64,000 nucleotides of DNA, taken from contig CANHVY010000007.1 in the NCBI GenBank assembly GCA_947464185.1, positions 1 through 64,000 of the forward strand. Direction: 5' to 3'. The translations under genes and the position numbers were made by a program. Of the stretch, positions 1 to 51,869 are shown piece after piece; position 1 is the stretch's first letter, and the number at the start of each line of letters is the position of its first letter. Below the pieces are notes generated by a model that was not told where the DNA came from, made no database searches, and was given only the letters and a program-made list of their open reading frames with translations. This DNA comes from Burkholderiales bacterium. Its GTDB lineage: Bacteria; Pseudomonadota; Gammaproteobacteria; Burkholderiales; Burkholderiaceae_C.

Positions 1-420
1 CAGCGCGCCGGCAATGTCTGTCAGGGTGTTGTTCGTCGCCGCCTGGTACGTGAAGGCCGTGCCGCCGATCGTGACCGTGTAGTTCTTGCCGACGACGACG
101 CCCACGCCCGTCAGGTCGATGGTACGGTCATACGCCTGGTCGGCAATGTCAGCGGCATTGACCGCGGGCGTACCGCTGACCCCTGAACCCAGCGTCACGC
201 TGATCACGGCCGTGCCGGCGCCATCGCTGACGGTGATGACGCTGCCGCTGGCGGCCGCCACGTAGCTGGCGTGGGCGTTGATGCTTACGGCCAGCGCGCC
301 GGCAATGTCTGTCAGGGTGTTGTTCGTCGCCGCCTGGTACGTGAAGGCCGTGCCGCCGATCGTGACCGTGTAGTTCTTGCCGACGACGACGCCCACGCCC
401 GTCAGGTCGATGGTACGGTC
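1..420 (-). repeat. 97-aa (291 bp) tandem repeat; copies share 129 bp of exact identity (1-129 = 292-420)
   Basis: Direct nucleotide comparison; encodes DRTIDLTGVGVVVGKNYTVTIGGTAFTYQAATNNTLTDIAGAL in each copy. Confidence 0.95.
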
Positions 421-18400: not shown

Positions 18401-21400
18401 AAGACCATGTTGTCGCCGCCGGCCGGCAGCGCGAAGCCCGCAGTGTCAATGCGGCCGTTCTGGTTGCGGTCCTCGCCCGCGTCGATCACGCCGTCGCCGT
18501 CCTTGTCCTCGGTGTAGTCGCGGAAGGAGGCGCTGCGCTGGAAGTTGATGGACGGCGGGCCGAAGAGTTGCAATGCAGCGTTGACCGGGCCAGGGGCCTT
18601 CCCGAGCACGAAGGTGTTGATGTTGACCTCAACGTCCTCGGCCTGCACTTCAAGGATGTCTTCTTCCACGCCGACCAGCGAAGCGGAACCGATGCTAGCC
18701 TTGGCTGCGATGAACCTCGGATCGAACTTCCCGATGCCCGGCACGAAGTCCAGCAGCGTGGGCGTCATGATCGCAAGGCCGAAGTCGACGTCTGTCACCT
18801 GAACGCCGACCGCAGCCTCGTTGACGAAGTCGGGGATACCGTCCGGCGCGTCGGTGCCCGGCGTGCCGGTCAAGTCAGGGCCGTAGCGGTACGGGCCGCC
18901 GATGCCGGCAAAACCGGTCAGGTTGGCGCCGCCCAAGGTGAGCGCTCTGACCTGCACGTCGTCCACGTACCGGCCCAGCGGGGCACCGATGGGGGTGCCG
19001 ATGCTCTGCAACAGCGGTGCCAGGCCACCGGTGTCGATGCTGATGTCGTACACCTCTCCCTTGCGGAAGGCCAGCGAGCCCTGCAGGTGCAGGAAGTCGG
19101 CGACGACGATCTGCGCGAAGCCGATGTCCAGGCCCATCAGTTCGCGGCCGTCGAAATCGAGCCGCACTGGCGTGCCGCCGGTGGGGATGACCAGACCCTT
19201 GTTCGGGCCGGTACCGATGCTGGAGTACACCGGCATCGCCCTCAGCAGGCCGTTCATAGCCTTACCGCCGGTGTTGGCCTCGACCGTGATGTCTTTTGCG
19301 ACGAGATCCAGCACGTCGCCCAGGCCATAGACGCCAAGCTCGTCAGCCTTGGCTTTCAGTGAGAAGACCTTCTCTGCCTTGTACCACTTGGGCAGATCGG
19401 CCTGGAAGGACCCGATGGCGAGGTCCAGGTCCTGCATGCCGAAGCCGAGCAGGCCCGACTGACCGGACAGGGACTTGCTGAAATCCGGCTTACCCAGGCC
19501 GACGAAGACGTCTATGTCGCTGCCGCCAAAGCTCACGCCCTTGAACTTGACCCCCGACAGCGTGGAGTAGTCGGCCGACAGGCCGCCGAACATCTTCAGG
19601 CCGTCGATGATGGTGTTGGCGGTGGGGCCGAGCAGCGCCTCGATCAGCTGCAACTGGCTCGGCAGGCCCGTACTCATGTCGGCCGTGAAAGTCTGCCCCA
19701 GATTGAGCTTGAAATCGCCCTGCAGGTGGACGAAGCCATCGAGACTGACGCTCAGGTTGGGCAGGTCGATCGAGCCGAACACGCCATTGATGCCGATCTG
19801 CAGGTCAATGTTCTGGAGGAACTTCAGCCCGTCGCGCAGCCACTGCGGCGTCGTCAAGGACAGGTCCGGGATCAGCCCGGTCAGGCTCTTCAGGCTGATC
19901 GTCGGGAACAGGCCATTGAAGCTCGGTGCCGGCAGGTTCAACCCGAGCGAGAAACTCGGCAGAGTGAACTTCGGGAACTCGATGTCCGGGAAGGACAGTG
20001 CGAAGGTGGGGAGCGCCGCGAACAGTCCGTGCAGCTTGGTCAGGTCGATCGAAGGCAGGTTGGCGTTGATCGCCGGCAGTTTGAACAGCTCGAAGTCGGG
20101 GAAGGCCGGCAGATCAGGGAGTTGGAGGCCGGGGTAGTTCAGCTTGAAAGCCGGCCAATCCTTGAAGAGCTGCTCCAGCGCCGTGAGGCTGAACGCCGGC
20201 AGGTCGAAGTTGAAACCCGGCACACCGATGTCGGGCAGCGCGGGCAACGCAGGGAAGACGATGTCCGGGAAATTGAGCTTCCAGCCCGCCCAGCCCGCGA
20301 ACAACTTGCCCAGCGCCGGCAGACTCAGCTTCAGGTCGGGCAGGCCCAGGTTCAGGTCGGGCATGCCGAGCTCGAGCTTCCAGTCGAAGCTCGGCAACGT
20401 CGGCAGCGTCAAACCCGGCAGTGTGAAGCGAAAGGGCAGGTCCGGGAGCGCCGGCAGGCTCGGGAAGACGATATTCGGGAAGCGCAGTTGGAGCGAAGGC
20501 CAAAGCGCGATCAGCTTGCCCAGTTGCGGCAGCGTCAGGCTGGGCAGGTCCAGATTCAGATCGGGCACGCCCAGCACCGCGCTCCAGTCGAAGTTCGGCA
20601 CAGTGGGCAGCTTCAGCGTCGGCAGCGCGAACTTCAGGCCCGAGATCGACGGCAACTTGAACGTCAGACCCGAGAAGTCGGGCATCGGGAAGGCGGGCAG
20701 CGTCGGCAGGATGCTGCTGAAGCCGGGCAACTCGAAGGTGAAGTCGAAATCGTGGCTGATATCGAAGAGATCAAATATGCCGAGCTTGGCCTCGACCCGC
20801 ACACCAAAGATGTTCTTGTCGAAGTCCAGCACCATCTTCTGACCGGTGCTGCCCACGGGTATGTGCCAAGCTCCGCCCTCGAGCGTCTTGAAGTTGGCGA
20901 AGAAGCCAGGCACCGGGTAGCCCTGCGCGAAGGCGCCGTTCAGGCTGAGACTGATGTCGCTGCCCTGCAGAGTCAGGAACGGGTCCGTGCCGACCAGGCC
21001 AGCGAGGTCTGCCGTGGCCTCGAGCGCAAAGTACTTCAGGCCCGGGATCGCCAGGCCCGTGGTCGAAGCGGGGCTCAGCAGCGCGAGCGCGAAATCCAGG
21101 TCCTCGATGGTGAAACCGATGGCGTTCGGGTTGGCGGGGTCCTTCTCGTCGACGACACCGTCTTTGTTGGTGTCCGTCCGGTAGGGGCCCTTGATGCCGA
21201 CAAAGGCGTGGACGTCCATTCCAGCCACGACCAACGCATCGGCCGCGGTGATGATCTCCTTGGTGGGCACATTGAAGCCGACACGGTCCAGGCTGCGCTT
21301 CTGAAAAGCGAAGCCCCCCTCCAGGCTCACCAGGTTGGCCAACTTGGCGGTGGCATGGCCTACCGAGGCCTCGAGGATCAGGTTGTTGGACTTCAGCTTG

Positions 21401-24400
21401 ACCGAGGTGACCCCGGTGGCAATGTCGCGGCCCGCGACAAGCCCGCCGTCGGTGAAGTCGACGACGTGGCTGGCCTTGCTGCTCTGGTTGATCGCGACGT
21501 TGACGTCATCGAGGGTGAAAGTTATGAAGTCGCCCACGCCGACGAAGCTGACGCTGTCGGCATGGGCCGCGAGCGCGGTGAACTTCACACCCGCCACACC
21601 GCCCAGCGTGTTCAGCGGGGTGTTGCGCGCCTTGTACAGGCCGAGGCCAAAGTCCAGGTCGTCAATGACGAGGCCGATGGCGTCAGGGTTGACGGCGTCG
21701 TTGTTATCGACGTCACCGTCATTGTCAGTGTCGGTTCGGTAGGGCCCGTTAACACCAACGAAGGCCTTTACGCCACTGGCACCGACCTCGAAGCCATCGA
21801 CCTGGACGTTGCGCAGCAGCACCCCGCCAGGACCTTTAACCGCAAGCGGAGCAGGCTGACCCTTGGAAAACGCGAAGGCGCCCTGGACGTGGACGAAGTC
21901 AGAAATGCGCAACGTGGCCTGGGTGACCGAGGCGCCGATCGCGGCAGTCTCCATGTCCAGCAGGACCGGCGTGCCACCCGTCGGGACCTGATAGCCCCCA
22001 GTCCCGGAGAAGCTCTTCTTGAAATCCAGCGCCGCCGCCCCGCCCGAGGCCTGGTTCAGGCTGACATCGAGTCCAAGCGCAGAGAGTTGGAAGTCGGCAG
22101 GATCAAAACCGTACAGTGCCAGGGTGTTGGCACTGGCCTTCAGCGCTGTGTACTTGACGCCGCCCGCCTTGACCTGCAGCAGACCGAAGTTGATGTCCTC
22201 GGCGCCCAGACCGTAGAGCTTGTCGGCCTGGCGGGCAAAGGGCTTCTGTGCGTCAAGCCCACCGTCGGCATAGCCGACGAAGACGTCGACGGCGGCCCCG
22301 CCGATCGAGAAGCCCTCACCCATGGGCAGGTTGTTGTTGTTGGCGTTCTTCAGGCCGGTGAAGGAGCGCTGCTCGAAGCCGATCGCGCCGCGAGCGTAGA
22401 CAAAGTCCGAAATGCGCAGCACGGCCGTGCCGGCGTAGGCGCCCAGGCGCGAACCCTGGAAGTCAAGCCGTACCGGCGCGGCCCCAGTGGCCACGTCCAG
22501 GCCGCGTGGCCCGGCGAAATTCAGTTCCCGGCCGGCCGTACTCGAGCGGTTGTATTCGAGCTTCACGTCCGACACCGAGAGCTCGAAGTCTTGCGGGTCG
22601 AAGCCGTACGCGGCCATGTTCCCGGCACTGGCCTTCAGCGAGGTGTAGGACGTTCCCGCCGTGTCCTTCAGGCTCAGCAGGCCGAAGGTCAGCCCGTCGA
22701 CGCCGAAGCCGTACAGGCTGCTGGCCTGCTGGGCCAGGGTCTTGGTGCGGTCGATGCCGCTGGAGGCGTAACCGACGAAGGCCGTGATGCCACTGCCGCC
22801 GATGGCGAAGCCCTTGGCGCCGGTGACCTGCGTGGGAGTGCTGCCCGCGCGCAGCGTGTTGCCGTAGTTGGCGCGCTCGAAGCCGAAGGCACCGCTGAGG
22901 TAGACAAAGCTCGAGAGCTGCAGCGTAGCGTTGCCGGCGTAGACGCCGAAGCGCTCGCCGCCGCTGAAATCCAGGGTCACGCCTTCTGCGCCACCGAGTT
23001 GCAGCCCACCGCCAAAGGACGCGGCGAAGTTGATCGTCTTGCTCGCAGTGTCGGCCCGGTTGATCTCCAGGTTCAGGTCCTGCGCGGAAAGCTCGAAATC
23101 GTCACCGTCGAAGCCGTACAGGCTGGCATCGTCCATGCGCGCGCTGAGGGCGGTGTAACTCTGCCCGCCCGCCTTGATGATGGCCAGGCCGAAGTCCAGG
23201 CCTTCCACACCGAAGCCGTAGAAATCGTCCGCCTGCTCCGCAAAGGTCTTGGTCGTGTCGAAGCCGCCGTCGGCGTAGCCCACGAAAGCGTCGATGTCAC
23301 GCCCGGTGATGGCCATCATCGAGGTGGCCGAGACCTTGCTGCCATCGTTGCGTGTGAGCTGGCCGGTGGGCGTGTAGCGTTCGAAGCCGATGCGGCCGCT
23401 CAGGTAAACGAAATCCGACAGTTGCAGCGTGACATCGCCCTCGGCACGCAGCAATTCGCCCTGAGCGCCGACGAAGCCCAGTGTCACCGGGCTGGCAGCA
23501 CCGGTGGCCACCAGCATCGGCTGCGCCGAGAAGTCGACGACGACGTCGTTGGCCTTGGTGGCCTGATTCAGCTCGACCGCCAGGTTGCGCACGGTGGGCA
23601 GCAAGTCGGACAAGCCGACGAAGCCGACGCTGGTGGCCTGTGCGCTCAGCGCGGTCCAGCGGCGCGAGGTGTCGGCCTTGCTGGTCATCAGGGCCAGGCC
23701 GAAGGCCACGTCATCCAGCATCAACCCGATCGCATCGGACGTGCCTGCGCCCACCCCAGCGAAGATGTCGACCGACGAGCCGCCCAGAGCGAGCAGATCG
23801 ACCTCGACCTTGTCGCCGGTGGCCTGACCGGTCTTCTTGGCGAGCGTCACCGTTTCGGTGCGCTTCTCTACCGCGACGCTGCCCTCGACGCGGACGAAGC
23901 CGAACAAGTCGATCAGCAGCGAGCCACTGGCCCGCAGCAGTTCGCCCTGTTGGCCCGCGAGGCTGAAGGCGAGCGGGCCGGCGGAGCCTGTGACCACCGA
24001 CAGGTTGGTGGCGCCCGGAGCGTAGTCGACCACCGTCGTCGCAGTACCGCCGGCCTGGTTGACCGCCAGCGTGATGCCGGTGGCCGAGACCACCATGTCG
24101 CTGCCCAGGCCGACGAATCCGGCCGAGCCGGCCGTGGCCTGCAGCGTGGTCCAGGTGCGAGCCGTGGGCGCGGGGTCGCCATCGGCCTTCTCGCTCAGCA
24201 GCGCCAGGCCGAATCGCACATTTGACAGTTGCAGGCCCAGGGCATCGCTCGTGCCGCCATTCAGGCCGGCGAACAGGTTCAGCCCTTCGCCGCCCACAGA
24301 CAGCAGGTCTACGTTCACCTTCTCGCCCGTGGTCTGCCCTCCCGTGCGCGCCAGAGTGACCTGGGTGCTGCTCTTCTCGAAAGCCAGGTTGCCGGTGACC

Positions 24401-27400
24401 TTCACGAAGCCCGCAACATCCAGCGTCAGGACGCCACGCGCCTGCATCAGTACGCCCTCGGTACCTCCCATGCCGAGCGTGATGGAGGTGCCCGGGCCGG
24501 TGGCCAGCGTCTTCTTGTTCGCTCCGGCGAAGTCCAGCACCGTGCCATCTGCGGCAGCGCGGTTGATCCGCACCTCCAGCGCCTGGCCCGTGGCCGTGAC
24601 CTCGTTCACCCCCACCAACGCGGCTGATGTGGCCGTTGCGCTGAGCGCGCTCCACCGCTGCGCCGTCTGGCCCTGCGCCGGGTTGCGCTCGGTGTACAGC
24701 GCCAGCCCGAAGTCCAGCTCCTGCACCTGCAGGCCCAGCGCCTGGGCAGTGCCGCCGCCGATGCCCGCAAAGGCATTGACGCCGCCGCCGCCCACCGTCA
24801 GCTTGTCCACCTCGACGCTGCGGCCCTTGCTGTCGACCACCGTGTCCGTGGCCTTCTCGATCGCGAAGCTTCCGTCGACTTGCAGGAAGCCGAACACGTC
24901 CAGTTCAAGCTCGCCCGTGGCGCGCGTGAGCTGGCCCTGGGCGCCGTCAAGGGTGATCGTGTAATGCGTATCGGCGGCCACCAGCACGTCCAGCGACTTG
25001 ACGCCGAAGTCCACCACCAGGTTCGGGTCCGCGTCGATGACACGGTCAGGCTGGGCTACCGTGGCGCCTTGCTGCACCACGGTCAAGGTGGCGCCGCCTT
25101 GCGCCGCGATCCCGCTGACCTGCAGCAACGCCAGATCACGCCCGCCCAGGCTGCCGCCGAACGTGATGTCGTAGACGCCGGACTCCGCTGGCGTGACCGT
25201 CAAGGTGACACCGGACAGTCCGCCCGCGCTGAAGGCCTGCGCCAGCGACTGCTGCACCTGCGCGGCCGTGGCGTCCAGCGCCAGTGTGGCCGTCGTGTAG
25301 GTCTTGGAGTCGTGCGTTAGCGCGAGCTTGAAACTGCCGCCTCCAGCGCCGTTGACCGTGACGCGCTGCACTTCGTCGATGGCCGGCGTGGTGACTGTCG
25401 AAGTCTGCGTGATCGTCAGGCCGCGCTGCAGCACCGCCAAGTCCACGCGCGCTGCGGCCGGCTGCGCCTGGACATGCACCGGGGCCACGGCCGTGCCGGC
25501 GAGTTGTCCGCCGAAGTTGATGATCCAGTCGCCTGCGCTGCCAGTGACCGTGATGTCGGCGCCAGCAGTGCCGGTGGCCGTGCGCAGCGCGGTCTGCACC
25601 TGTGCGGCCGTGCTGGCCAGGGACAACGCTGCTGTGGTCTTGCTCCCCGCGCCCACATCCACGCTCAGTGTGAAGGTGCCCTGCGCGCCTGCCGGGGCCT
25701 GCACGCGTTGCTGCGCTGGCGTCTTCTGCAGCACAGGCGTCACCGTCTTGGCCTGGCCCTGCTGCGACGTGCTGACCTGCACGCTCACGCCGGTCTGGGT
25801 GGCCACGGTGAACTGCGGCACATCCTTGAAGGCCAGCTCGCCAGTGAAGTCGACGAAAAAGCGCGGGGATGCCGCGGTGGAACTCTGGTCGAAGCTGACT
25901 GTGGCCCGGCCACTGCCGAGCATCGTGTCCAGCGCCGCCTGCAACGTGGTGCGGTTCTGCGTGGGGCTGGACTTGGAGAAGTCGATGAGGCCGGTGGTCT
26001 TGGCGTTGGCGCCAGTGCCATACCCCAGGCTGTAGCGCACGTTGGTCGTACCGGTGGCGCCGCTGAAGGCGATGACCTGACGCTCGCGCACGTTGGTGCC
26101 GCTGCTGGTGCTGCCGGTCTGCGTCGTGCGGCCTTCCTCGACAGCGGTCACCTGCAGCGTGATCGAGGGCTGCTGCAGCGCCACGCCCAGCGCACTGAAG
26201 TCTTGCCCGGCACGTGCACCACTGAATTCCAGCGTGTAGCCGGCTGCGCGCGTGCCCGTCACCGTGACTGCGCCAGCCCCCACGCCCGTCAGCGACTCCA
26301 GCGCGATGTCGATCTTCGCGGCCAGCGCCGCATCGGTGTCGGCCGCAACCAGCGTCACGTCCGCCGTCTGCCCGCCCAGGCTGAAGCGCAGCGTGCCCGC
26401 CTGGGCTGCCAGCGTCATCTGCAGCCGGCTGTTCTGCACCAGCGGCGTCAGCGTCACATTGATGCGCGCAGCCTGGCCCGCGGTGCGCTCGCTGGCCCCG
26501 GCGCTGACCGTGCCCGGCTCGGCGCGCACGGTCAACGTGGAGTAGTCGCTGCCGGCCAGCGCGCCGCCGAAAACGATGGTGAAGCCTTCTTCTCGCGTGC
26601 CGGTGATGTCGACGGCCCCGTCCACGTCGGCTTGGGTGCGCCCGGCGCCCACCAGCATCTGCTCGAGCTTGCGGCGCAGTTCGTTGCGGATCGATTCGCT
26701 GCTGCGCGATGCCGTCAGCGCCAGCGCTGCCTGCTGCGCGCCCAGCGCCAGGTGCAGCGTGCCCTCGGCCAGGGTGGTGTCCAGGCGCAGGATGGTCTCG
26801 TGCTTGAGCGCGGGCTGCGCCTGCGTGCCGCCTGTGGTGGCCAGGTTGCGGTTGATGGCCAGTTGCAGGCTCTGCGCCTGCACCGTCAGGCCGTCCACGC
26901 CCACGAAGGCTGCGGAGCTGACGTCGCTCTGCAGCGCCATCCACTTGCGTGCCGTGTTGGCGCGGTCGCTCATGATGGCCAGCGCGAAGTCCGCATCCTG
27001 CAGGTTCAGCCCGAGCGCATTGCTCGCGCCACCATTGAGCCCGGCGAACGCCGAGATGTCCTTGCCCCCCAGCGTCAACACGTTCGCGTTGACCGTGCTG
27101 CCGTCGGACAGCGCGAGTTCGGCAGTGGTGCGCTCGAAGGCGAAGTTGCCCTGCACGCGGAAGAAGCCCGCCACGCCCACGGTCAGCAGGCCGGCAGCGC
27201 GAAGCACCGGGCCCGCGGAGGCTGCGTAGGCGATCTGGATGGAACTGCCTGCGCCGGTGGCCACCGTCACCGGCGTGAGCGCGAAGTCCACCAAGCTGCC
27301 GTCGGTGGCCGCGCGCGTGACCTCCAGCTTCAGGCTGGATGCTTGCAGCGTGAGTTCGGGCACGCCCACCAAGCCAACGACCCCGTCGGTGGGCACCACC

Positions 27401-30400
27401 GCCTGCAGCGCCAGCCAGCGCCGCTGCGCATTGGTCGCGTCGCTGGCCAGCACCAACCCCAGGTTCAACTTGCTGATCGACAGCCCCGTGCGGTCAGCAC
27501 CCACGCCCACGCCAGCAAAGGCACTCAGGTTCGAGCCACCGAAGCTCAGCACCCGGGCGCTGACGTCAGCCGTTGTCGCTGCCGCGCCGCCCGTGCCCGG
27601 CTTGAGCACCTTCAGTGTCTGCGTGGTGTCGCGCACCGCGAGGTCGCCGCTGGCCTGGATGAAGTCGCCCACGCGAAGACTCGCGCCGGTGAGCGTGGCC
27701 CCGCGCAGGTCAGCAACACCCAGGGTGCCGAAGGTGTGCGAGACAGTGTCGATCGTCAGCGTTTGGCCCGTCCAGCTCTTGCCAGTGCTGTTGTAGAAGA
27801 TCGTGGCCTCGTCGGCTCCGAGTTCGACCGCGCCGCCCAGGTCGGCGTAGAGCCCGCCCACGGCCTCGAAGGCCACGCCCGAGGCGTCGATCACCAGCCC
27901 GATGTCGGCGTCGGTGGCACCTACCTCGAAGCCGCCGGCTGACAACACTGCCAGCGCATCGTTGGCCAGCAGTACCAGCCGCTGGCCGGCCTTCTCGAAG
28001 CCAAAGTCGCCGCTGAGGACCAGGTAGTCGCCTAGCGCGATGTCGAGCGAGCCGAAGATTTTGAAGCCTAGATTCTGCAGGTCCAGGTCGAAGGGCAGCT
28101 TGCCGATCAGGCCATCCAGGCTGGGGAGTTCGGGCAGTTCGATGCCGAACAGGCCGAAGTCCAGGCCGGGCAGGTCCATCTGCGGCAGCTTGAACAGGAA
28201 CTGCAGCACGTTGAGCTGCGCCCAGTCCACGTTCACGTCCGGGAAGGCCAGGTCGCCCAGCTTGACGTCCGGCCAATCTGGCAGCAGTTTGCTGAAATCG
28301 AAGCTCAGCTGCAGCCCTGGCAGGTTCAGCCTGGGCAGCGCGAACAGGAACTCTGGCAGGCTCAGTGTGGCCCAGTCGATCTGCAGGTCGGGGAAGGCCA
28401 CCGCCAGGTTGGGCAGGCGGATCGTGTCCCAGTTCACGGTGCCGAATTCCGGCAGCGTCAGACTCACCCCGGGCAGGCTGGGCAGCAGGCTCTTCAGCGA
28501 GGTCAGCAAGTCGCCCAGGCTGACGTCGCCCAGTTGCGGCAGTGTCAGGTTGGGCAGCGCCACGTCCGGCCAGCTCACGCCGGGCACGCTGGGCAGCTTC
28601 AGCGCGGCCCAGTCGAAGCCGAACTCCGGCAGCAGGCCTGAGAGGTCGATGTCGAAGCCCGGGATGTTCAGCCGCGGCAGGGCGAACACCAACTCTGGCA
28701 GCGTCAGGTTCAGCCAGTCCAGCCCCAGGTTCGGCAGTTGGGCCGTCAGCTCCGGCCAGGTCAACGTCAGGAAGCCCAGATCAATGTCGGGCAGGCTCAG
28801 ATCCAGCCCAGGCAGGCTCAGCAGCGTCAGCCCGAGTTCGGGGAGCGACAGGCCGGCCCAGTCGATACCAAGATCCAGCGCGCCCAGCCCCGGCAGGTTG
28901 AAGCTGGGCAGCGTGGGGACGCTCAGGTCCATGAACGGGAAGGACCCGATCGACAGGTCAATCTCGGGCAGGTCCAGGTCCGGCGTGAGCCCACTCAGGT
29001 CGAAGGTGTTGAAGTTGAACGGCAGGTCGTGCAGGCGCAGTTCCAGGTCCATCACCAGCGGCGTCACGCCGTCGGCCTTGGTCAGCGCCGCCTCGCCCAC
29101 CTGCAGCGAGCCCGAGAACCCGGTCTTGCCGTTGACCTTGGTCACGATCACGCCGCCCTGCAGGCCCTTCAGCGCCAGCTTGGCGCCACCTGGGGGCGAA
29201 CCCAACGTCAGAGACGTGTGCGCGTCGAAGGCCGACAGCACCCAACCCTGCTGTGGCTGGCCCTCTTCGATGGTCATCTGCTCGCGGCTGATGCCAAAGC
29301 GCCCGCCCAGCTCGTAACTCACCCCGCCGAAGGACAGGCCCAAGTCCAGGTCGGCCGAGACCGAGAAGAAGTCGTGGTGCTGGGTCGCGCTGTAGTCGAA
29401 GGCAAAGGCACCGACCTGCGTGTCCACGGCACTCCCCGTGGTGTTGAAGCCCAGGTGCGCGCTGCGGATCGCCGCCACGTCCAGGCCTTGCAGCGGGCTA
29501 CCATCGTCCTGCGTCAGATCAAGGCTGCCCAAGCGCAGCACGCCGGCAACACCGGCGGACGACAGCACGAAGCCGCCGTCGATGCCACTGGCCGAAAGCT
29601 TGGCCCCGCCCGCGGACAGTACGAAACTGCCGTTGTCGATGGACACCTCGACCGCATCATCGCTTCCGGTGGGGATGGCAACGGTGATGTCGCCTGACAA
29701 CTCGCCCGGCCCCAGGTCAACCGTTGCTTTGACCTGCAGCAGTGCCCGATCGCGGGTGTCGTCCCATGACAGGAGGAAGGCGCCGGCATCGATGTCGAAT
29801 CCGCCGACTGTGAAGTCGGCGGAGAAGTTGACGGCGGGCAGGCTGCCTGGAACGAAATAGTCGGCGTTCAACAACTGGCCGATCTGGTCCAGCACGCCTG
29901 CAGACCCCACGATCTGCGCCAGCGGCAGGGCTTGGCCCGCGCCAGGGACCAGTTCCTTGGCGACAAGCTTGAGCTGGCCGGCGGTGCTGGCGTCACCCGT
30001 CTGCACAAGATCGAACCAGATATTGCTGTGAAGGCCGAACAGGCCCTCCACGGCATCGAAGCGGCCCTGGACCGACCCATAGCTGAACACCACGAACTCG
30101 TCACCGGCCTTGGGCGTGAAGCCGTTGACGAGTTCGAGGTCCAGCGTGCCGTTCAGCGTGGCCAGCCCGCTGACGTTGATGCGGTCGTGGAAGGCACCAC
30201 TGCCGGCGTCTGCCACGGTGGCAGGCGCGGTGCCACCGAGTTCGATGACAGTGCGCGTGGCGTCTGTCAGCGTCAAGCCGCTCTCGTAGGAGATCAGTCC
30301 GGGCGAGTACCCGGGAGCGAGCGTTCCCTCGACCAGCGTGGGCGCGTCGATGACACCGCTGCCGGCCAGCGTGGCCCCGGGTCCGACGACGAGCGCGCCA

Positions 30401-31020
30401 AGGTCGACGTTGCCGACCTCCCGGGCCAGGCGAGCAGTGTCGAAAAGACCTTCGCCCAGCTTCAGTTCGCCGTCAAGCCATAGGGAATGGCGCAGCCCAC
30501 CGGGGGTATCTTCCGACTCATCGGCGGTGCTTGGCACCTCGGCAGACCACGGCCCGGCGGCCGAGGCATCCAGCACCGCAGCGGTCTCGCCCGCGCTGCC
30601 AGCCTGCAGCACCTGGACCGACAGCACCTCCTCCATGAAGCGGCCATACCCTGGATCAGCCGAGGCCAGCGCCGAGTCCATGAAGGCGGCCCGCGTGCGG
30701 GTCAGCGCAACATCGAAAGCACTCGAGTCAACTGAAAATGCAGGTTCAGTTGCAGTGCCGGGCTCGAACGCACCCAGCGCAGATTCCCCGGCACGCAGGG
30801 CGTGTTCCAGGTCATCGATCTCGCCGGCAGCGCGGATCCCGTTGTCGTACAGGACGTGCTCCGCATCGCGCAGCGCAAGGGCCTGCACGGCGGCAGCCGC
30901 CGGGTCCGCAGACAGCAGGATGCGCTGCTCCAAAGGCTCGACCTGGAAGGTCGTGCGCAGGAGCTTTCGCAACAGCCCCGACATGCGGGGCGGTGTTGCA
31001 ACGGGCCTGTTTCGGCGCAT
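1..31020 (-). CDS. Giant LEPR-XLL-type modular repeat protein, adhesin/surface-like (partial; C-terminus beyond left edge; >=10,340 aa)
   Basis: ATG at 31018-31020 (minus), immediately preceded by an in-frame TGA (31021-31023). 31,020 nt = 10,340 codons. Translations sampled at about 30 places in this frame are coherent from 30.9 kb to position 1. No listed minus-strand ORF has its start at a coordinate divisible by 3 between 1 and 31,020, as expected if the frame never closes in the window. N-terminus MRRNRPVATPPRMSGLLRKLLRTTFQVEPLEQRILLSADPAAAAVQ. Confidence 0.95.
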   Translation of the reverse strand, partial: MRRNRPVATPPRMSGLLRKLLRTTFQVEPLEQRILLSADPAAAAVQALALRDAEHVLYDNGIRAAGEIDDLEHALRAGESALGAFEPGTATEPAFSVDSSAFDVALTRTRAAFMDSALASADPGYGRFMEEVLSVQVLQAGSAGETAAVLDASAAGPWSAEVPSTADESEDTPGGLRHSLWLDGELKLGEGLFDTARLAREVGNVDLGALVVGPGATLAGSGVIDAPTLVEGTLAPGYSPGLISYESGLTLTDATRTVIELGGTAPATVADAGSGAFHDRINVSGLATLNGTLDLELVNGFTPKAGDEFVVFSYGSVQGRFDAVEGLFGLHSNIWFDLVQTGDASTAGQLKLVAKELVPGAGQALPLAQIVGSAGVLDQIGQLLNADYFVPGSLPAVNFSADFTVGGFDIDAGAFLLSWDDTRDRALLQVKATVDLGPGELSGDITVAIPTGSDDAVEVSIDNGSFVLSAGGAKLSASGIDGGFVLSSAGVAGVLRLGSLDLTQDDGSPLQGLDVAAIRSAHLGFNTTGSAVDTQVGAFAFDYSATQHHDFFSVSADLDLGLSFGGVSYELGGRFGISREQMTIEEGQPQQGWVLSAFDAHTSLTLGSPPGGAKLALKGLQGGVIVTKVNGKTGFSGSLQVGEAALTKADGVTPLVMDLELRLHDLPFNFNTFDLSGLTPDLDLPEIDLSIGSFPFMDLSVPTLPSFNLPGLGALDLGIDWAGLSLPELGLTLLSLPGLDLSLPDIDLGFLTLTWPELTAQLPNLGLDWLNLTLPELVFALPRLNIPGFDIDLSGLLPEFGFDWAALKLPSVPGVSWPDVALPNLTLPQLGDVSLGDLLTSLKSLLPSLPGVSLTLPEFGTVNWDTIRLPNLAVAFPDLQIDWATLSLPEFLFALPRLNLPGLQLSFDFSKLLPDWPDVKLGDLAFPDVNVDWAQLNVLQFLFKLPQMDLPGLDFGLFGIELPELPSLDGLIGKLPFDLDLQNLGFKIFGSLDIALGDYLVLSGDFGFEKAGQRLVLLANDALAVLSAGGFEVGATDADIGLVIDASGVAFEAVGGLYADLGGAVELGADEATIFYNSTGKSWTGQTLTIDTVSHTFGTLGVADLRGATLTGASLRVGDFIQASGDLAVRDTTQTLKVLKPGTGGAAATTADVSARVLSFGGSNLSAFAGVGVGADRTGLSISKLNLGLVLASDATNAQRRWLALQAVVPTDGVVGLVGVPELTLQASSLKLEVTRAATDGSLVDFALTPVTVATGAGSSIQIAYAASAGPVLRAAGLLTVGVAGFFRVQGNFAFERTTAELALSDGSTVNANVLTLGGKDISAFAGLNGGASNALGLNLQDADFALAIMSDRANTARKWMALQSDVSSAAFVGVDGLTVQAQSLQLAINRNLATTGGTQAQPALKHETILRLDTTLAEGTLHLALGAQQAALALTASRSSESIRNELRRKLEQMLVGAGRTQADVDGAVDITGTREEGFTIVFGGALAGSDYSTLTVRAEPGTVSAGASERTAGQAARINVTLTPLVQNSRLQMTLAAQAGTLRFSLGGQTADVTLVAADTDAALAAKIDIALESLTGVGAGAVTVTGTRAAGYTLEFSGARAGQDFSALGVALQQPSITLQVTAVEEGRTTQTGSTSSGTNVRERQVIAFSGATGTTNVRYSLGYGTGANAKTTGLIDFSKSSPTQNRTTLQAALDTMLGSGRATVSFDQSSTAASPRFFVDFTGELAFKDVPQFTVATQTGVSVQVSTSQQGQAKTVTPVLQKTPAQQRVQAPAGAQGTFTLSVDVGAGSKTTAALSLASTAAQVQTALRTATGTAGADITVTGSAGDWIINFGGQLAGTAVAPVHVQAQPAAARVDLAVLQRGLTITQTSTVTTPAIDEVQRVTVNGAGGGSFKLALTHDSKTYTTATLALDATAAQVQQSLAQAFSAGGLSGVTLTVTPAESGVYDITFGGSLGGRDLALLQVSGIAAQGGATLTVVQQGATVAQPDRVIDADPNLVVDFGVKSLDVLVAADTHYTITLDGAQGQLTRATGELELDVFGFLQVDGSFAIEKATDTVVDSKGRSVEVDKLTVGGGGVNAFAGIGGGTAQALGLQVQELDFGLALYTERNPAQGQTAQRWSALSATATSAALVGVNEVTATGQALEVRINRAAADGTVLDFAGANKKTLATGPGTSITLGMGGTEGVLMQARGVLTLDVAGFVKVTGNLAFEKSSTQVTLARTGGQTTGEKVNVDLLSVGGEGLNLFAGLNGGTSDALGLQLSNVRFGLALLSEKADGDPAPTARTWTTLQATAGSAGFVGLGSDMVVSATGITLAVNQAGGTATTVVDYAPGATNLSVVTGSAGPLAFSLAGQQGELLRASGSLLIDLFGFVRVEGSVAVEKRTETVTLAKKTGQATGDKVEVDLLALGGSSVDIFAGVGAGTSDAIGLMLDDVAFGLALMTSKADTSRRWTALSAQATSVGFVGLSDLLPTVRNLAVELNQATKANDVVVDFSAQPMLVATGAASPVTLGFVGAQGELLRAEGDVTLQLSDFVYLSGRIGFERYTPTGQLTRNDGSKVSATSMMAITGRDIDAFVGYADGGFDTTKTFAEQADDFYGFGVEGLDFGLAIIKAGGQSYTALSARMDDASLYGFDGDDFELSAQDLNLEINRADTASKTINFAASFGGGLQLGGAEGVTLDFSGGERFGVYAGNATLQLSSFVYLSGAFGFERANYGNTLRAGSTPTQVTGAKGFAIGGSGITAFVGYASSGIDRTKTLAQQASSLYGFGVDGLTFGLLSLKDTAGTSYTSLKASAGNMAAYGFDPQDFELSVSDVKLEYNRSSTAGRELNFAGPRGLDVATGAAPVRLDFQGSRLGAYAGTAVLRISDFVYARGAIGFEQRSFTGLKNANNNNLPMGEGFSIGGAAVDVFVGYADGGLDAQKPFARQADKLYGLGAEDINFGLLQVKAGGVKYTALKASANTLALYGFDPADFQLSALGLDVSLNQASGGAAALDFKKSFSGTGGYQVPTGGTPVLLDMETAAIGASVTQATLRISDFVHVQGAFAFSKGQPAPLAVKGPGGVLLRNVQVDGFEVGASGVKAFVGVNGPYRTDTDNDGDVDNNDAVNPDAIGLVIDDLDFGLGLYKARNTPLNTLGGVAGVKFTALAAHADSVSFVGVGDFITFTLDDVNVAINQSSKASHVVDFTDGGLVAGRDIATGVTSVKLKSNNLILEASVGHATAKLANLVSLEGGFAFQKRSLDRVGFNVPTKEIITAADALVVAGMDVHAFVGIKGPYRTDTNKDGVVDEKDPANPNAIGFTIEDLDFALALLSPASTTGLAIPGLKYFALEATADLAGLVGTDPFLTLQGSDISLSLNGAFAQGYPVPGFFANFKTLEGGAWHIPVGSTGQKMVLDFDKNIFGVRVEAKLGIFDLFDISHDFDFTFELPGFSSILPTLPAFPMPDFSGLTFKLPSISGLKFALPTLKLPTVPNFDWSAVLGVPDLNLDLPSLTLPQLGKLIALWPSLQLRFPNIVFPSLPALPDLPFRFTLPGLTLPTLPSFDWKLELGMPDLNLGLPDLKLSLPALGKLFAGWAGWKLNFPDIVFPALPALPDIGVPGFNFDLPAFSLTALEQLFKDWPAFKLNYPGLQLPDLPAFPDFELFKLPAINANLPSIDLTKLHGLFAALPTFALSFPDIEFPKFTLPSFSLGLNLPAPSFNGLFPTISLKSLTGLIPDLSLTTPQWLRDGLKFLQNIDLQIGINGVFGSIDLPNLSVSLDGFVHLQGDFKLNLGQTFTADMSTGLPSQLQLIEALLGPTANTIIDGLKMFGGLSADYSTLSGVKFKGVSFGGSDIDVFVGLGKPDFSKSLSGQSGLLGFGMQDLDLAIGSFQADLPKWYKAEKVFSLKAKADELGVYGLGDVLDLVAKDITVEANTGGKAMNGLLRAMPVYSSIGTGPNKGLVIPTGGTPVRLDFDGRELMGLDIGFAQIVVADFLHLQGSLAFRKGEVYDISIDTGGLAPLLQSIGTPIGAPLGRYVDDVQVRALTLGGANLTGFAGIGGPYRYGPDLTGTPGTDAPDGIPDFVNEAAVGVQVTDVDFGLAIMTPTLLDFVPGIGKFDPRFIAAKASIGSASLVGVEEDILEVQAEDVEVNINTFVLGKAPGPVNAALQLFGPPSINFQRSASFRDYTEDKDGDGVIDAGEDRNQNGRIDTAGFALPAGGDNMVFIDFDEEIVQAKIGYAEINLAGFLQLSASMSLTKKGSESVTLSNGVTTQVTSLAVGINDAYGFIGIPFGGKGYFYDNNNDGRIDEKDTVRNTGAVGLAIEDLDLGLVLAKESRFSATGVDFGLYLGGRATVQKIGLVGVPGATLEARDLAIEINTGARFSLGMGQFVRDEAAGTVSYDPNLSVTVSLTTIDFSKSTWTHPDDAPGVTRPGYAIDTGNPREPVVLNYSSQFLRLFGAMEVELFGLVSLDGQLDFRLSDKDGLTAFANVQVQVGPDGFNLRRQATGLLVINQGGVALRMNMQADLDLGPVAKLDAELDLSLNTFGKLIVYDVPEVFRGPSTDFGPDNPSTPTVDERWQFTIGAFPPGKDASWTGMYAALTGKGSLELFDGALDLKGDFSVIVAKVQTSVVLELGVTATLDLPLLEPLGVAGTLGLVIDTNTSGANQTGIYGALEVGGNNPSSTIIDGGDIFSVSGSFLLQINTTSATQKVRGRDPVTGTFFDPQGKPSEVSVAAQTLRISGKASIEVGPIELRGAVDLLIDKTGVQAAMDLTLDLSDFGEIKVAGAAAFGVDGTTPFFALRVQTKLEFGVSQLGIFADATLQINTRGSAYTTLPDSGGKTYTIAANTLFDLEIKGKLKVLAFEVALEGGIEIVDEVFRLDFKGTLDFFGFLVINVEGFIESDGDFLISGSAKLDIKLGPLRLEAGMSILFSSQPRFAGSAYGSLDFEIDLGLFEIDITLAGFSAAIDLTPISAYMAASVTVMGVTVSGSHLWSFGPRPVITRQDGDTLYLNSGDTSGRYGGGDLYDDTVNEAYTILSNADGSITVESLGEQVKHYGVNRIVARGGKGSDSIYVGEGVKAVLDFDGGDGKDNFNIFGGAAGSVIKGGAGNDVFQGGSVAGISYEGGEGNDRFVGGGTAEIIDMGSGSDTVFGGGGNDTIYIGTGESFVDTGEGDNLLLVSGGGRLEVTGGSGTDRLELSPISSTADQPIRLNDHQFVQGARTIDFTDALDRIEVRDNAATTNVLTGSGASWGATDLALDAAGVLDVTGATFHAPQALLSLQAKGIKGTINTTVAELTVVNTLTGGVAAERDIVVREVDDLDIVADNRTNGGLYAAAGSIDVELAKRESLLTLRSGVLSTAAGGGAISILADDVDFVSGDDRVGGTGTLTLRAKDAAQDYRIGAAGQSTFGRDLSRNGATGTFDLGMGDLSALADGFSAITIGHRAPGVLMSVGDVENKAVGIFNFLSRFTDPATLQAYRINVMGDLQSTDTLTLSAHLLEVQRQNVQDALGPADSGITAKRALVNVTEQIQISGWIKGDELVDIDVTGSTGVDAMLTSRAGLISLSADKGSSVQSLNAGSRVEITTSHAILSATTIEARGADSWVKVIAGTGLTVLEGAAIVARSDRAKIELSATTYIHLNSGSAVTSGARFDMVGATPVPVKTGADATLSINTTGELNIAGSVTAAGTLTIQSGKTLSTYADYFDTLPGRTISTLGAADLQAALVALKAGTLSPALSTLLSSSIVGLQPNPALTPLQDYAPFTSLNKAARDALALHLGYTTYVDGGYYNPTTGAFRTSLTQGGVVSSTGYEKHDGLIFYKANAAEAQPLRALLAQETDPVKRQALLNQIKAIELRTSFVQGERPDYSNAAINWQAAGVPAPAANATFDSLTGAQKMVVASSLGYVFDHSVIPLDTWASAPFDYAQIPLQTWIDASTIDFRNTLSATQWGSVPRPLSGTPYASLTEAQRAVVDRWIEFSPMQVDRLVLTGEYTVGATLAVTINGTRVAVTVQASDVGANQAATRAAVALRLADAINAQPLVASKVTAQAHGELLRVRSDLSTAQSTPAFTLTLDANEARVEQTRVAQLAYANLTPGQRDVVMGKLRPSLDARWQDLTAAQRGVITAYLDGPGQTSFDHDGDASTPARTIPLPKNFFNFNAAPGDVTRTTFSQGPLTDYENTNVYWGSAGAPTTGAAFGALTLAQKKVVAKALGYEVYEGSVWYCADAPAATRLVTQAATGAPADFSLELIDWGGVRAPAKLTSGAEPGFEDLTLAQQRVVAQTLGYDVLDRQVFVKLNAADAAKRVLTLLVEGADYQNGSLNWGDAPKPVEGTSFDALTREQQDRVLEQTGYIRWDGLLYYSSKAPAGKQYMLGFEQGAGKDYENKSIRWSAIEVPVLSQRVDLSAVTVTADKSYTISIDGTDYVYTAGAGDNLAKVVAGLLSAINKGGVHAARVDPAQANRLQINDGLGADNSGRAVITFSTTASGTAVIDDVPGGGVTDVPYGALNSAQQQAVLAQTGFAFQAGPVYYKAGAGDRTLVTSFLPGIDYTVDSSSNPTKRWIVTDNTGQKLQLYAYDAENDGIVDELRVQRAHPLLGQRGYGFLLTGTITTLQDNADFTVQGADDAIIRGNINLLGAGSDLTIQSDRWTYWEGTANVAGSILLAGGIKIDGTLPTGGAGANTDGVSLYVHAASTLNTTGAGMSITLLGGRDVELYGRAVAGGAIGASGVTWAGPDSKVSVVAGEQILVDTALLASKEVKLQTTGVTGLDDKGYAIVVTSAGALVAGGITSNGSGGRVAFDVAGNVTVAGTILAGGTMNGDEIVWREASTVSLKSAGQLYLGGLTRTESGGTVEIGATVRANQRIELMGGVSTDDVGLKLPGSARLATYNPDGQIVISSIEDAWVYGQVVAGGEVIDHFDPTGDFLGSTARNFRGDSTITVESTQGQVRLGRDLFAGKSVDVRGGTVSGRSTADDPWANDGIVIGGSVHLKTWQDNSNVTLSASGKLSVLAPAWTQELVADGFAEYADGHLSAPASFKLSINVGTAVVERVIDVPAARTGGLGALRDAIQAAIQAAPFLVVSSPGNAVPVGTAFNISGADNAPYQFNVRLNDGRLMFTSNFEFSIVAVAGGGAQRLGLTQIAASGATSGPVASGRGYAIDAPGFGSTVNIGKLNQPGGDITVSGWIRAHSAINLYGGSTSSGGQSVKLETTGLLETLSGGMVLRPAGAAVLQGSLVARGAGADIVIQARDTLELRGDLTAQRDIIISAGTTVQAGQKSLRTYGTSQLTTLDAGSRILLTGLNDVLINSTVGKGNAQLGLLQIESTQGSLEIARESGWLETGASMLLKGTDVDVFGNVVSLLSTPAVFDHEITIQAIDDVQLNGTLTLAGSLLVKAGDDVSVKGTQLLAQGAGQRLTFEVGDALTFGSTVADEGAQVGAGTALDVRAGGLVTVERNAKLYSSRDNSRISLRGNDIVVLGSIDAGATYTPPPAGAPASQAGTRAWTGKLAALDLNATRAISLGDDTAADAEQRIGGSVQATGAITVQAGAGSTGVGVFLGTKTSVIASATGQFRSTQAAVWSEAAAGGDASVSVRADGAVRMHGEVTAFDTGADITVSSLSQVVVDGLITANDSLVVQGGVHSSKVGLLVSTLVLDGTTYKSGGTLDTAAGGTIRLTATDGIKIEGVIGQRDLGSAKVGLLEIDSSGSDVTVLRNVDVRDEVRITGQNINVLSGSYVYATGANSEVYMRARNALVVSGALAPKAQAIVKADELVHLAAPTVSIMGQVEAGLVAVNPADAANVDADRIIDMKGLSLTAGQAYTVRIAHGPVASETVRTFAETLGTPLTQTLEQLVAALAAKIDADAAYAAVVDSTKPDQIKITTGAGTARISISLGGDSASGRVLFNAGTTLTVGGIVSSNDRIDMNAGVDLSWTRAQLEGAILASQLRGGTLTVSGNGLVSAGGAVRLQAGGSVVLDAQAAVTAPRAVSIERLVTVAETVDVVVGETSVAVGQVQVPEYSWVKTQITEQVGTERVKVGSSYTTMDVTLTQTGYYNPKATADAQFREMLVEGLDYVNSNIDWNNNGTEGRAAVTFSTSEVNNLQTTDQKNKTLYKGFTQLTDVQRQAVLNQTGYMALYQFGYSNALKHQTLNGNVTSAPFTPSWNANVGANEKVFFIDVAGWRDKYVRMPVGAEADVLRVTSQGEALYLAGDTTNDGGSDGQWKTATDIAALTAALSVSGSAVTITTPVAGQQFTISVSGTSFSVTAASGQTASAVAALLATQIDVHPTYGAKAVGAVITITGGSGISGQSRLPQGEWVGRYQDQAAVTYTQDRSVYYLPVNGYPTPPAAQERAGYDNPFAAQEDGRGRWKVDYSLASGDRVFDIFSRTNGASTKTVLDRDPNWTWESTQLIQAYDNDSDVINPSAQRQTALSDYKGNRATDNIFALNTWVDSLAFDTQALSQNGASTSSFKSNAFSYQYWGAWTTVVGMWVDNDDGSEWGEYDDESEVGEWGRVNDKPGTYRDLMKVDGSGTKVDQRDWERNRLFMTASGHDGYAYWGRQQNFNGNTWNSMRSEFDWIRSSQDYRVDGEANDGGDDLYIEIQGRKALNATVSETYKNYRYDWKSNWHNVYDTRVKLSYQLATQDQDIFQFRPVYQTVIKDVQVVTQKDVTVWAQVPVVQQETRLRTVVATENATARQYGEFDGESITGSSVTINAGGNVRLSGRVAAAEAVSVNAGGLLELKGQMRDGQQVTARLRSADIDLVSRDGMTLDDSAILEATGQLSKIDLKAGLDLAWGGVTELNATFAPGGSLDIDARAGRNINLSGLITANELEMKAGDSVGKDGTITADAETRVLATTGNIVLTAGDLGGHIRMTGATFTAQAPDQRIDLTARFGAVEQVKSTATSGTASAALASGVLTAAEIRVLAETGIQLNTVASKATLRTTAAGNVELTNLGSLLLQDAEAYDGSITVAATGSLSAALVRTLGSSDRNDIVLTTLAVGAGALTVDTLQTDDRGDIVLRSAGQIVQSSSLLSDAARDVANARKPVTAPVLLTHALKADQLDVRAGGSVTLNTQLQGLTLQTTHAGSVTISQGNRDLVLNAVNVADGSLTVTGQGGVELADVRLASNKDSNDVTVTASGDIGVRYVSAGIHLLQAGDRPVIYDASAGAGTAAISVNLASGVSGSPVVSAADTANANHLRTIDLGTMTVVEGLTYTVEFGPQGSPTHSYSVTATLGEVSAVNPAAALASKLSAAINLGGVYTAAVDVTNTRQINITAGAGTLDIRLPVPAGATGAPVINARDFADASTERTITLTGVTAVANKVYSVTIERGGSSDTYSYTAKVGDTIVAIASGLATAISGGSKYTAQIDGSSAVIRLVTLYTSAGEVTLTSTGGAIRETFTDAAVDIVADRLTLSAKTGILGLEISANSLDALTTGGSIDLSESDGLYEKSDGLQIVRAWSSLTTDTGTPAATVVRVSTENQLRVGADGVVRGDRVELASEDAGVSVDKPTGWNGSTPDSIRYTTGVSFSAETVVALYRFFNASQWMEYRAGDHFVFGYDSNTFTRRLPTTITTETLILETGGSLTMTGELKVGKRLELIAAESVLLAGKVGVTAGDANGLIDEVLITAKGLRQAVQARDLNNDGDTSDTLVETIQAAVDRNSDGDTLDTLSEALANVDYNGDGDKTDVVVEAAFGIDYNGDGDILDTVLEAGTPVDTGFINIQVDVLPAENFQLRAKRDIFVALGSGTDATVTNLTLTGFVGGLEGFDQARDVTLDIEGVLTVRGGIVAANDVTGRLRLAAQSITTDGASVFIADDLNVRATGAVKLNTLVDTLTVNVSGAGSVTVREATGLMIDRISAADGAIDVSAGGDLYVRDVHNMADGDSITLEATGGAWIDRVEAGTSVGAQKTGGTITVDAAGTIREWAAQIRNSAGQITGTALDQTSADLYGHQVKVLGAVSAASKLLTDPTITGTTDELEVRVVAAGGYTTGSTTVTADSVLKAGGAAIAVTAAPVTSAGIAAPQISRVFFSDVMAAGTAITVSVNGTDYSVTPGDVIAGYASGAPVGATWGSVLGALEFKLESIAGLVLAVSADATQRTLTLEGPDNTAYTVTVSVSSTTSGTLTGALLDDGLSPTQLAGSKAKQVSDLAFANAALAADSVFTVVVNGNAHRARVGENVLLTLSSAANATITVDAVGPIPGYAASVINAADIADTAHDRTIDLTGVGVVVGKNYTVTIGGTAFTYQAATNNTLTDIAGALAVSINAHASYVAAASGSVITVSDGAGTAVISVTLGSGVSGTPAVNAADIADQAYDRTIDLTGVGVVVGKNYTVTIGGTAFTYQAATNNTLTDIAGAL
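1921..2160 (-). repeat. Four tandem ~19-20 aa acidic EF-hand/TSP3-like repeats
   Basis: RDLNNDGDTSDTLVETIQAAV/DRNSDGDTLDTLSEALANV/DYNGDGDKTDVVVEAAFGI/DYNGDGDILDTVLEAGTPVDT, translated in the giant frame. Confidence 0.85.
5000..6000 (-). other. Trp/Asp/Tyr-rich segment of giant protein, no family recognised
   Basis: GAWTTVVGMWVDNDDGSEWG (5,581-5,640) followed by EYDDESEVGEWGRVNDKPGT (5,521-5,580). Confidence 0.7.
6960..11250 (-). other. Filamentous-haemagglutinin-like beta-helix region of giant protein
   Basis: Alternating hydrophobic/Gly-rich short repeats, e.g. AFDVAGNVTVAGTILAGGTM (10,621-10,680). Confidence 0.65.
11450..13850 (-). repeat. 'DYENxxVxWGxAxxPxxGxxFxxLTxxQxxVVxxxLGYxxxxGxxYYK' repeats
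   Basis: DYENTNVYWGSAGAPTTGAAFGALTLAQKKVVAKALGYEVY (12,421-12,543); GVTDVPYGALNSAQQQAVLA + QTGFAFQAGPVYYKAGAGDR (11,461-11,580). A further copy, DVQRQAVLNQTGYMALYQFG, lies outside the block at 6,661-6,720. Confidence 0.8.
15541..15780 (-). repeat. RTX-like glycine/aspartate nonapeptide cluster
   Basis: SVIKGGAGNDVFQGGSVAGISYEGGEGNDRFVGGGTAEIIDMGSGSDTVFGGGGNDTIYIGTGESFVDTGEGDNLL translated from 15,541-15,780. Confidence 0.85.
19860..20760 (-). repeat. Leu/Pro-rich repeat block 2 (LPGLTLPTLPSFDWKLELGMPDLNLGLPDLKLSLPALGKLFAGWAGWKLNFPDIVFPALPALPDIGVPGFNFDLPAF)
   Basis: Codon-by-codon translation of 20,101-20,420; 'FP(D/N)IVFP(A/S)LPALPD' occurs twice 210 nt (70 aa) apart. Confidence 0.88.
21121..21750 (-). 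other. EF-hand-like acidic loops (GPYRTDTDNDGDVDNNDAVNPDAIG; GPYRTDTNKDGVVDEKDPANPNA)
   Basis: Translated at 21,661-21,750 and 21,121-21,210; DxDxDGxxDxxD spacing of calcium-binding loops. Confidence 0.7.
21300..24960 (-). repeat. Array of ~160-170 aa modules ('LSDFVYLSGxFGFER' type)
   Basis: The anchor Phe codon of the FVYLSG-like motif falls at 22,402, 22,906, 23,410, 23,896, 24,406 and 24,886 (spacings 504, 504, 486, 510, 480 nt = 168, 168, 162, 170, 160 aa). Confidence 0.85.
25080..26640 (-). repeat. 'TVTG...G(Y/W)xIxFGGxLAG' repeats interrupting the ~168-aa module array
   Basis: TVTPAESGVYDITFGGSLGG (25,141-25,200), ADITVTGSAGDWIINFGGQL (25,501-25,560), GAGAVTVTGTRAAGYTLEFS (26,221-26,280), RTQADVDGAVDITGTREEGF (26,581-26,640). 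Confidence 0.75.
27000..28030 (-). repeat. ~160-170 aa modules ('F..V.G.FAFE' type), N-proximal group
   Basis: VGVAGFFRVQGNFAFERTTA translated at 27,121-27,180; related segments near 27.6-28.0 kb. Confidence 0.7.
28070..28990 (-). repeat. Leu/Pro-rich repeat block 1 (e.g. AVAFPDLQIDWATLSLPEFLFALPRLNL; WAGLSLPELGLTLLSLPGLDL)
   Basis: Translated codons 28,321-28,400 and 28,801-28,860 in the giant frame; 'LPxL/FPDL/DWxxLxLP' recurs across the block. Confidence 0.85.
30150..30480 (-). other. Autotransporter/passenger-associated-type repeat region (GSGVIDAPTLVEGTLAPGYSPGLISYESGLTLTDATRTVIELGG)
   Basis: Direct translation; the 'G.L.PG.SPG.....G.L.L.......ELGG' pattern is typical of this repeat class. 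Confidence 0.65.
30901..30948 (-). other. LEPR-XLL-like N-terminal motif (FQVEPLEQRILLSADP)
   Basis: Codons 25-40 of the giant ORF. Resembles the LEPRxLLSAD signature recalled from N-termini of very large bacterial surface proteins. Confidence 0.8.
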
Positions 31021-31795: not shown

Positions 31796-31991
31796 GAAAA
31801 ATCTCTCCTCGGTTCGATAGGGCTTGTGCTGCACCCAAACATGCAAGCGAACGCACTTTGCTCTGACATTGAAACTTTATCGGGCTACTCAGCCCAAGTC
31901 CCACGCCGTGACAGAAAATGTAAGAAATGAATCCGCAAAACAAAGGGAAAGCCCGTAGTCCGAGCCGAGGGGATCCGCGTGGTGGCGCCGC

Positions 31992-34100: not shown

Positions 34101-34164
34101 GTGGCTGCCGTGAGCCCGAACCTGGCTGCCATGAAGCGCCGACCAGACACACTGCAACCCTTCC

Positions 34165-36628: not shown

Positions 36629-36704
36629 CGTGCCGAGTGGCTCACGATCTCGGCACAGCCTGCAGGACTTCAAGCCACCCCGGCGGTAAACGCAAGGCGC
36701 AGGT

Positions 36705-51851: not shown

Positions 51852-51869
51852 ACGAAGGGGCAGGTCAGC

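Follow-up and report, generated by a model that had tools for sequence, protein, structure and literature searches.

A giant LEPR-XLL open reading frame at a contig end in a Burkholderiales genome and a linked, putative export module

The giant open reading frame and its surroundings

The window, that is, the whole 64,000-nucleotide stretch analysed here, begins at base 1 of the 96,910-bp contig C7, which belongs to a 4.17-Mb genome assembled in 169 contigs. Nearly half of it is taken up by one minus-strand ORF, followed upstream by a SapC-family gene and two genes for signal-transduction proteins. The features are as follows.

1..31020, minus strand: giant LEPR-XLL ORF of 10,340 codons that runs off the contig (translation, codon-position GC)
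1..140, minus strand: incomplete unit of a 291-bp tandem repeat, near-identical to the copy at 292-431 (135/140 nt identical)
15541..15798, minus strand: Gly-rich, RTX-nonapeptide-like segment, about aa 5075-5160 (sequence; PF00353 E 0.0011, below the Pfam cut-off)
17926..19563, minus strand: third block of about 165-aa repeats, aa 3820-4365 (self-comparison)
19861..20748, minus strand: Leu/Pro-rich segment, copy 2, about aa 3425-3720 (self-comparison)
20761..25017, minus strand: main block of about 165-aa beta-rich repeats, aa 2002-3420 (predicted all-beta, low confidence)
26848..27681, minus strand: first block of about 165-aa beta-rich repeats, aa 1114-1391 (self-comparison)
28141..28953, minus strand: Leu/Pro-rich segment, copy 1, about aa 690-960 (self-comparison)
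30883..30948, minus strand: N-terminal LEPR-XLL motif FQVEPLEQRILLSADP, residues 25-46, a proposed address or leader signal (NF012209, N-terminal comparison)
31067..31846, minus strand: gene of the SapC family immediately upstream of the giant, about 45 nt apart (PF07277 E 1e-75)
31992..34100, plus strand: 7TMR-DISM sensor histidine kinase (domain match)
34165..34824, minus strand: OmpR/PhoB-type response regulator (domain match)

Translation of the minus strand from position 31,020 to position 1 yielded 10,340 residues with 0 stops, and the next in-frame stop upstream is the TGA at 31,050-31,048. In every 500-codon block of the ORF, the GC content of the third codon position (0.79-0.92) exceeds that of the second position (0.40-0.56), and there is therefore no sign of a hidden frameshift. 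The longest stop-free runs expected by chance are far shorter, with a mean of 407 and a maximum of 649 codons in 50 random sequences of the same dinucleotide content. The claim of the preliminary description that an uninterrupted ORF of at least 10,340 codons lies here is thus borne out by the stop-free translation and the single codon-position phase. The same description called the ORF invisible in the ORF track; it is indeed absent from the default list because it runs off the contig end, but it comes first once open-ended ORFs are allowed. Translation may start at TTG 31,023, ATG 31,020 or a later ATG, and no clear ribosome-binding site was found upstream of these candidate starts. Since C7 breaks inside the second copy of the 291-bp repeat, the C-terminus of the giant is lost from the assembly. 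It lies outside the window, as had been described, but it is unassembled rather than located in a neighbouring stretch, since position 1 is the contig end. A search of the source genome for the missing middle part, using a slice of an orthologue (G027, below) as the query, gave no match.

The giant matches the NCBIfam family NF012209 (LEPR-8K) with 36.6 bits (E 2e-8) in the genome search and 29.2 bits in the protein search, both above the curated cut-off of 17 bits. It therefore has the two hallmarks of LEPR-XLL proteins, a motif near the N-terminus scoring above the cut-off and a very large size, and the repeats of about 165 residues agree with the earlier claim of a modular, repeat-built LEPR-XLL protein. 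The protein contains a single cysteine among its 10,340 residues, is net acidic in composition, and has no transmembrane segment over that length. Its N-terminus is basic and lacks a hydrophobic core. Pfam searches with 5,000-aa and 1,000-aa slices gave no domain above the cut-off, the weak RTX match being the only signal, and the predicted model of one repeat of about 165 residues, an all-beta structure of low confidence, has no match among known folds. Giant repeat exoproteins with probable beta-helix stretches are also the cargo of two-partner secretion (FHA/TpsB). In contrast to that system, a Pfam search of residues 1-1000 of the giant, taking in matches up to E 1, did not find the TPS (haemagglutination activity) domain, and TpsB is not among the linked genes. 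Weak LEPR-like matches on contigs C46 and C13 of the source genome belong to other genes, the one on C46 to a LEQRFMFDGAA/DUF4347-type protein.

The SapC orthologue of a same-genus genome (G014) also adjoins the giant, in divergent orientation. In Campylobacter, the S-layer export locus is reportedly organised as sapC-sapDEF. The locus studied here shares with it a SapC-family gene beside a large surface-protein gene, but lacks a sapD-type ABC exporter. The repeat make-up and SapC suggest a surface function of the giant, as an adhesin or an S-layer-like protein. The convergent genes for the histidine kinase and the OmpR-type regulator (window 31992-34824), next to SapC and the giant, are possible regulators of the locus. 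Genes of carbamoyltransferase (NodU-like), 2OG-oxygenase-like and JmjC-type proteins lie nearby at window 35096-38422 and are possible modification genes. EF-P helps the translation of proline-rich stretches; a gene for EarP, the EF-P rhamnosyltransferase, is located at window 46690-48003, and the giant has Leu/Pro-rich segments.

Orthologues and the module beside the giants

Two genomes of the same genus, G027 and G014, encode closed, colinear orthologues of 12,518 codons (stop to stop) and 12,605 codons, respectively, with about 30-48% protein identity to the giant. Residues of the giant up to about 10,290 align with orthologue positions up to about 9,330. Judging from this alignment, roughly 3,000 residues may be absent from the C-terminal end of the giant, and we estimate the complete protein at roughly 12,500-14,000 residues. 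The orthologues share a C-terminal DYWxxxLxL sequence, and the G014 giant ends with FDYWEDSLVL. Directly downstream, overlapping the end of the giant gene, lies a second LEPR-XLL gene (G027_C98 51176-59110 and G014_C89 7835-15817). Its approximately 2,650-2,700 codons are homologous to the C-terminal part of the giant. Even longer LEPR-XLL ORFs were observed in other genomes, one of 19,427 codons (G160:C115:112865) and one of 18,012 codons that runs off its contig (G061:C10:53906).

At the start of contig C14 of the source genome lie the C-terminal 723 residues of a protein of the LEPR-giant type, which ends with FDYWVETLTL. The reading directions are those expected of one gene running off C7 and on into C14, and orientation and homology together suggest that the two contigs join. 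The fragment scores slightly better against the approximately 2,660-aa LEPR paralogue of G014 and G027 than against the giants, and it could instead be the end of a second LEPR gene. The genes that follow it on C14 are, in order, those of a lipoprotein, TolC, an M50 chimera, a SecA-like protein, an MFP and an extended MFP, and 4-nt overlaps (GTGA) join the M50/SecA and MFP/MFP2 gene pairs. A conserved module of TolC, two MFPs, a PqqD/RRE-like-M50-MFP chimera and a SecA-like ATPase adjoins LEPR-XLL giants also in same-genus and same-order genomes. The divergent neighbours of the G014 giant are SapC, TolC, an RND-type MFP, an N-terminally extended MFP, an M50 protein and a SecA-like protein. Matches to PF02321, PF13437 and PF16576 identify the TolC and HlyD-family adaptors linked to the giants. 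The preliminary description expected type I (T1SS) or two-partner secretion genes past the C-terminus. The TolC and HlyD-type adaptors on C14 agree with this in part, but the C14 module has neither an ABC transporter nor TpsB, and in their place are the RRE-like/M50/MFP chimera and the SecA-like ATPase. SecY2 and Asp genes were absent among the module genes scanned, and no SecY-like pore was found within the module. We found no description of the module in the open-access literature (PMC) searched.

The first 140 residues of the chimera match PqqD (PF05402) in 25 of 28 members, with a best E-value of 2e-7. The N-terminal domain is predicted with pLDDT >90 for residues 11-100, and the top PDB matches of this predicted fold in Foldseek are leader-peptide-bound RRE proteins of lasso peptides (prob 1.00, with a modest E of 0.004). 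The RRE-like domain is followed by a polytopic M50 domain and then by an MFP barrel-sandwich. The HExxH and NxNPLxRFDGY motifs are intact on C14 and in 79/79 chimeras from the best 80 of at least 588 loci (see below). The M50 protein scores 165.9 bits against daptide_HExxH (NF041824), under the curated cut-off of 300. With RiPP maturation systems (PqqD/RRE; daptide_HExxH NF041824, YydH/LiaK M50) the chimera shares the fusion of a PqqD-like domain to an M50 intramembrane protease; in contrast to these, it has an additional C-terminal MFP domain, and the proposed cargo of the module is a giant protein instead of a small peptide.

The SecA-like protein has SecA_DEAD, PP_bind and P-loop domains and aligns to SecA residues 52-607, which we take to be the motor and preprotein-binding domains, with the wing/two-helix-finger part lying beyond. 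The C14 protein keeps the motor motifs GEGKT, DEADS and GRGTDI, and Walker A is kept in 70/73 SecA-like proteins from the best 80 of at least 588 loci. On the other hand, Walker A, DEAD and GRGTD are lost in the SecA-like proteins of G014, G027, L107 and L114, while M50 stays intact. These proteins form a small pseudo-ATPase clade, which includes those next to the closest giants (G014_C89 60784-62577 and G027_C98 103769-105352).

Linkage and co-occurrence of giant and module

A scan of 84,980 genomes with 14 chimera sequences returned at least 588 loci, of which the best 80 were analysed. These 80 come from Burkholderiales, other Gamma- and Alphaproteobacteria, Desulfobacterota, Verrucomicrobiota, Planctomycetota, Fibrobacterota, Nitrospirota and Rokubacteria, and include cultured Marinobacterium mangrovicola DSM 27697, Dyella, Frateuria and Psychromonas. 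In this set, M50 is immediately followed by the SecA-like gene in 73 of 76 testable loci and immediately preceded by the extended MFP in 62 of 69, and an ABC transporter occurs within 7 kb in 3 of 80, each time more than 5 kb away. LEPR-8K was found in 34/39 module-bearing genomes, where the longest ORF has 18,012 codons, as against 0/14 controls. In most of the module-bearing genomes one end of the giant falls 2-7 kb from M50 on the strand of M50, and the usual distance to the module is 2-3 kb. That giant and module share a contig was judged by coordinates, and in more than 20 loci the computed end of the giant agrees with the ORF seen in the locus itself.

Among 61 relatives, the chimera is present in 10 of 11 LEPR genomes and 6 of 50 others (p 9e-7). 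An evenly drawn sample of 299 Pseudomonadota contains 36 LEPR-8K genomes and 33 genomes with a full-length (class A) chimera; 29 of these 33 are LEPR-positive, compared with 7 of the other 266 (Fisher p 1.8e-29, counting genomes as independent, with positives spread over many families). Full-length was defined as at least 530 bits, a boundary set after seeing the data. Since raw M50 alignment matches at E<=0.001 occur in 293/299 genomes through the MFP domains, score bands alone were used. Raw searches with the SecA-like protein mostly matched housekeeping SecA and were of no use for co-occurrence. One of the four class A genomes that had no LEPR match has IEPLEPRLLFSA beside the chimera, and the other three have cut-off contigs.

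The seven LEPR-positive genomes that lack a full-length chimera all read ALEPRxLLD(A/G)A and all have a lower-scoring, class B chimera, so that each of the 36 LEPR-positive genomes has one class or the other. When these seven are left out, a post hoc reclassification made after seeing the data, 29/29 LEPRxLLSA-type genomes have class A (p 2e-36). The class B chimera of G051 adjoins a DUF4347-type giant with LEPRFMFDGAA, and class B modules have no SecA-like gene. The source genome itself carries a second giant system, with a LEQRFMFDGAA/DUF4347-type N-terminus, preceded by OEP and MFP, at C46:3-6998 (minus strand). At C41:25163-33779 (minus strand), a giant C-terminus is followed by an extended MFP and a class B M50, with no SecA-like gene. 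The giant parts on C46 and C41 are possibly one gene split by the assembly.

A candidate export route and its alternatives

The locus holds one real gene, which encodes a probably extracellular or surface LEPR-XLL repeat giant, and we consider it likely that a dedicated machine other than a classical type I system exports this protein. Our results concern the ORF, its orthologues, the module, their linkage and co-occurrence, the intact catalytic motifs and the predicted RRE-like fold; export, tag recognition, cleavage and the choice of an inner-membrane pore are what we infer. In this route, the N-terminal basic stretch and the LExLE(P/Q)RxLLSAD motif would serve as an address tag, to be bound by the PqqD/RRE-like N-terminal domain of the polytopic M50-protease/membrane-fusion chimera. 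The SecA-like ATPase encoded next to the chimera would drive the unfolded, cysteine-free chain, and the MFP part of the chimera, the two further MFPs and TolC would form the conduit through the envelope. The M50 site may then remove or release the tag. The strongest objections to a dedicated exporter are the motor-dead SecA-like copies, the class B modules without SecA and the missing inner-membrane pore. Given the motor-dead copies and the SecA-free class B modules, the SecA-like protein is not the sole motor.

The giant might instead be secreted by a common ABC-type T1SS of the LssB/LapB type whose genes lie elsewhere, with the linked module having another role, for instance in its processing or anchoring. 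A canonical LssB-type ABC exporter above the curated cut-off is indeed encoded on contig C70 of the source genome, the giant has weak RTX-like repeats, and the conserved C-terminal DYWxxxLxL could act as a C-terminal signal. In addition, a published report (PMC10868602) describes RTX and serralysin domains at the C-terminal end of a Vibrio LEPR-XLL protein of about 8,000 aa. We regard this alternative as unlikely, since LssB is unlinked and only weakly associated with the giants (20/36 LEPR-positive vs 87/263 negative genomes, p 0.008), no LssB scores above the cut-off in 16 of the LEPR-positive genomes whereas all 36 have a class A or B chimera, and the modules bring their own TolC and MFPs without ABC genes. 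T1SSs (HlyB/HlyD/TolC; LapBCE with giant RTX adhesins) and the module share TolC/OEP, HlyD-family adaptors and giant cysteine-free cargo. They differ in that the module has a SecA-like ATPase and an M50-MFP chimera instead of an ABC transporter, and in that the conserved address motif is N-terminal.

It is less probable still that the housekeeping Sec system takes the giant across the inner membrane and the SecA-like protein acts as an additional SecA, in the manner of the accessory Sec system of Gram-positive bacteria, MFP and TolC serving the outer membrane only. The SecA-like protein is a true member of the SecA family with a preprotein-binding domain, and accessory SecA2/SecY2 is reported to export giant serine-rich adhesins (PMC5578698, PMC5076819). 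However, the giant has no Sec signal peptide, its basic N-terminus having no hydrophobic core, the SecA-like protein lacks the wing/two-helix-finger part, and the module has no SecY2-like gene. The accessory Sec system (SecA2/SecY2/Asps) resembles the module in having an extra SecA-family ATPase beside a giant surface-protein gene. The module differs in being Gram-negative and devoid of SecY2 and Asp, and its shorter SecA-like protein, which stops near SecA residue 607, is tied to TolC and MFP.

That the 31-kb ORF is a decayed gene, or an artefact of assembly or composition, is a reading already refuted as far as sequence can refute it: GC-rich genomes yield long antisense ORFs too and this draft is fragmented, but the codon-position signature spans the whole ORF, the chance maximum is 649 codons, the gene has colinear orthologues, and closed LEPR ORFs of more than 7,000 codons occur by the dozen elsewhere, several in complete genomes. 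Of the findings that the preliminary description named as refuting it (an in-frame stop, a frameshift, separate genes in another assembly), none turned up, and closed ORFs of this type occur in several independent genomes.

Beyond the dedicated exporter proposed for this giant, LEPR-XLL and the sister motif ALEPRxLLDAA/LEQRFMFDGAA may be leaders of an undescribed RRE/SecA-like/M50-MFP/TolC class of diderm secretion, in which an RRE-like domain would select giant proteins much as such domains do in peptide natural-product pathways and two chimera classes match two leader classes; we rate the chance of this broader scheme a little short of even. In the open-access literature searched, LEPR-XLL proteins are known as a motif only, with no linked exporter or RRE partner and just two passing mentions in PMC. 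For diderm bacteria, the export of proteins of 8,000-19,000 residues is a largely open question, and such giants are widespread. If the module is the exporter, a SecA-like motor, RRE leader recognition and a TolC conduit would be joined in one system, a combination not described in the open-access literature searched. The LEPR-XLL motif would then gain a function, and the question would be testable in cultured carriers.
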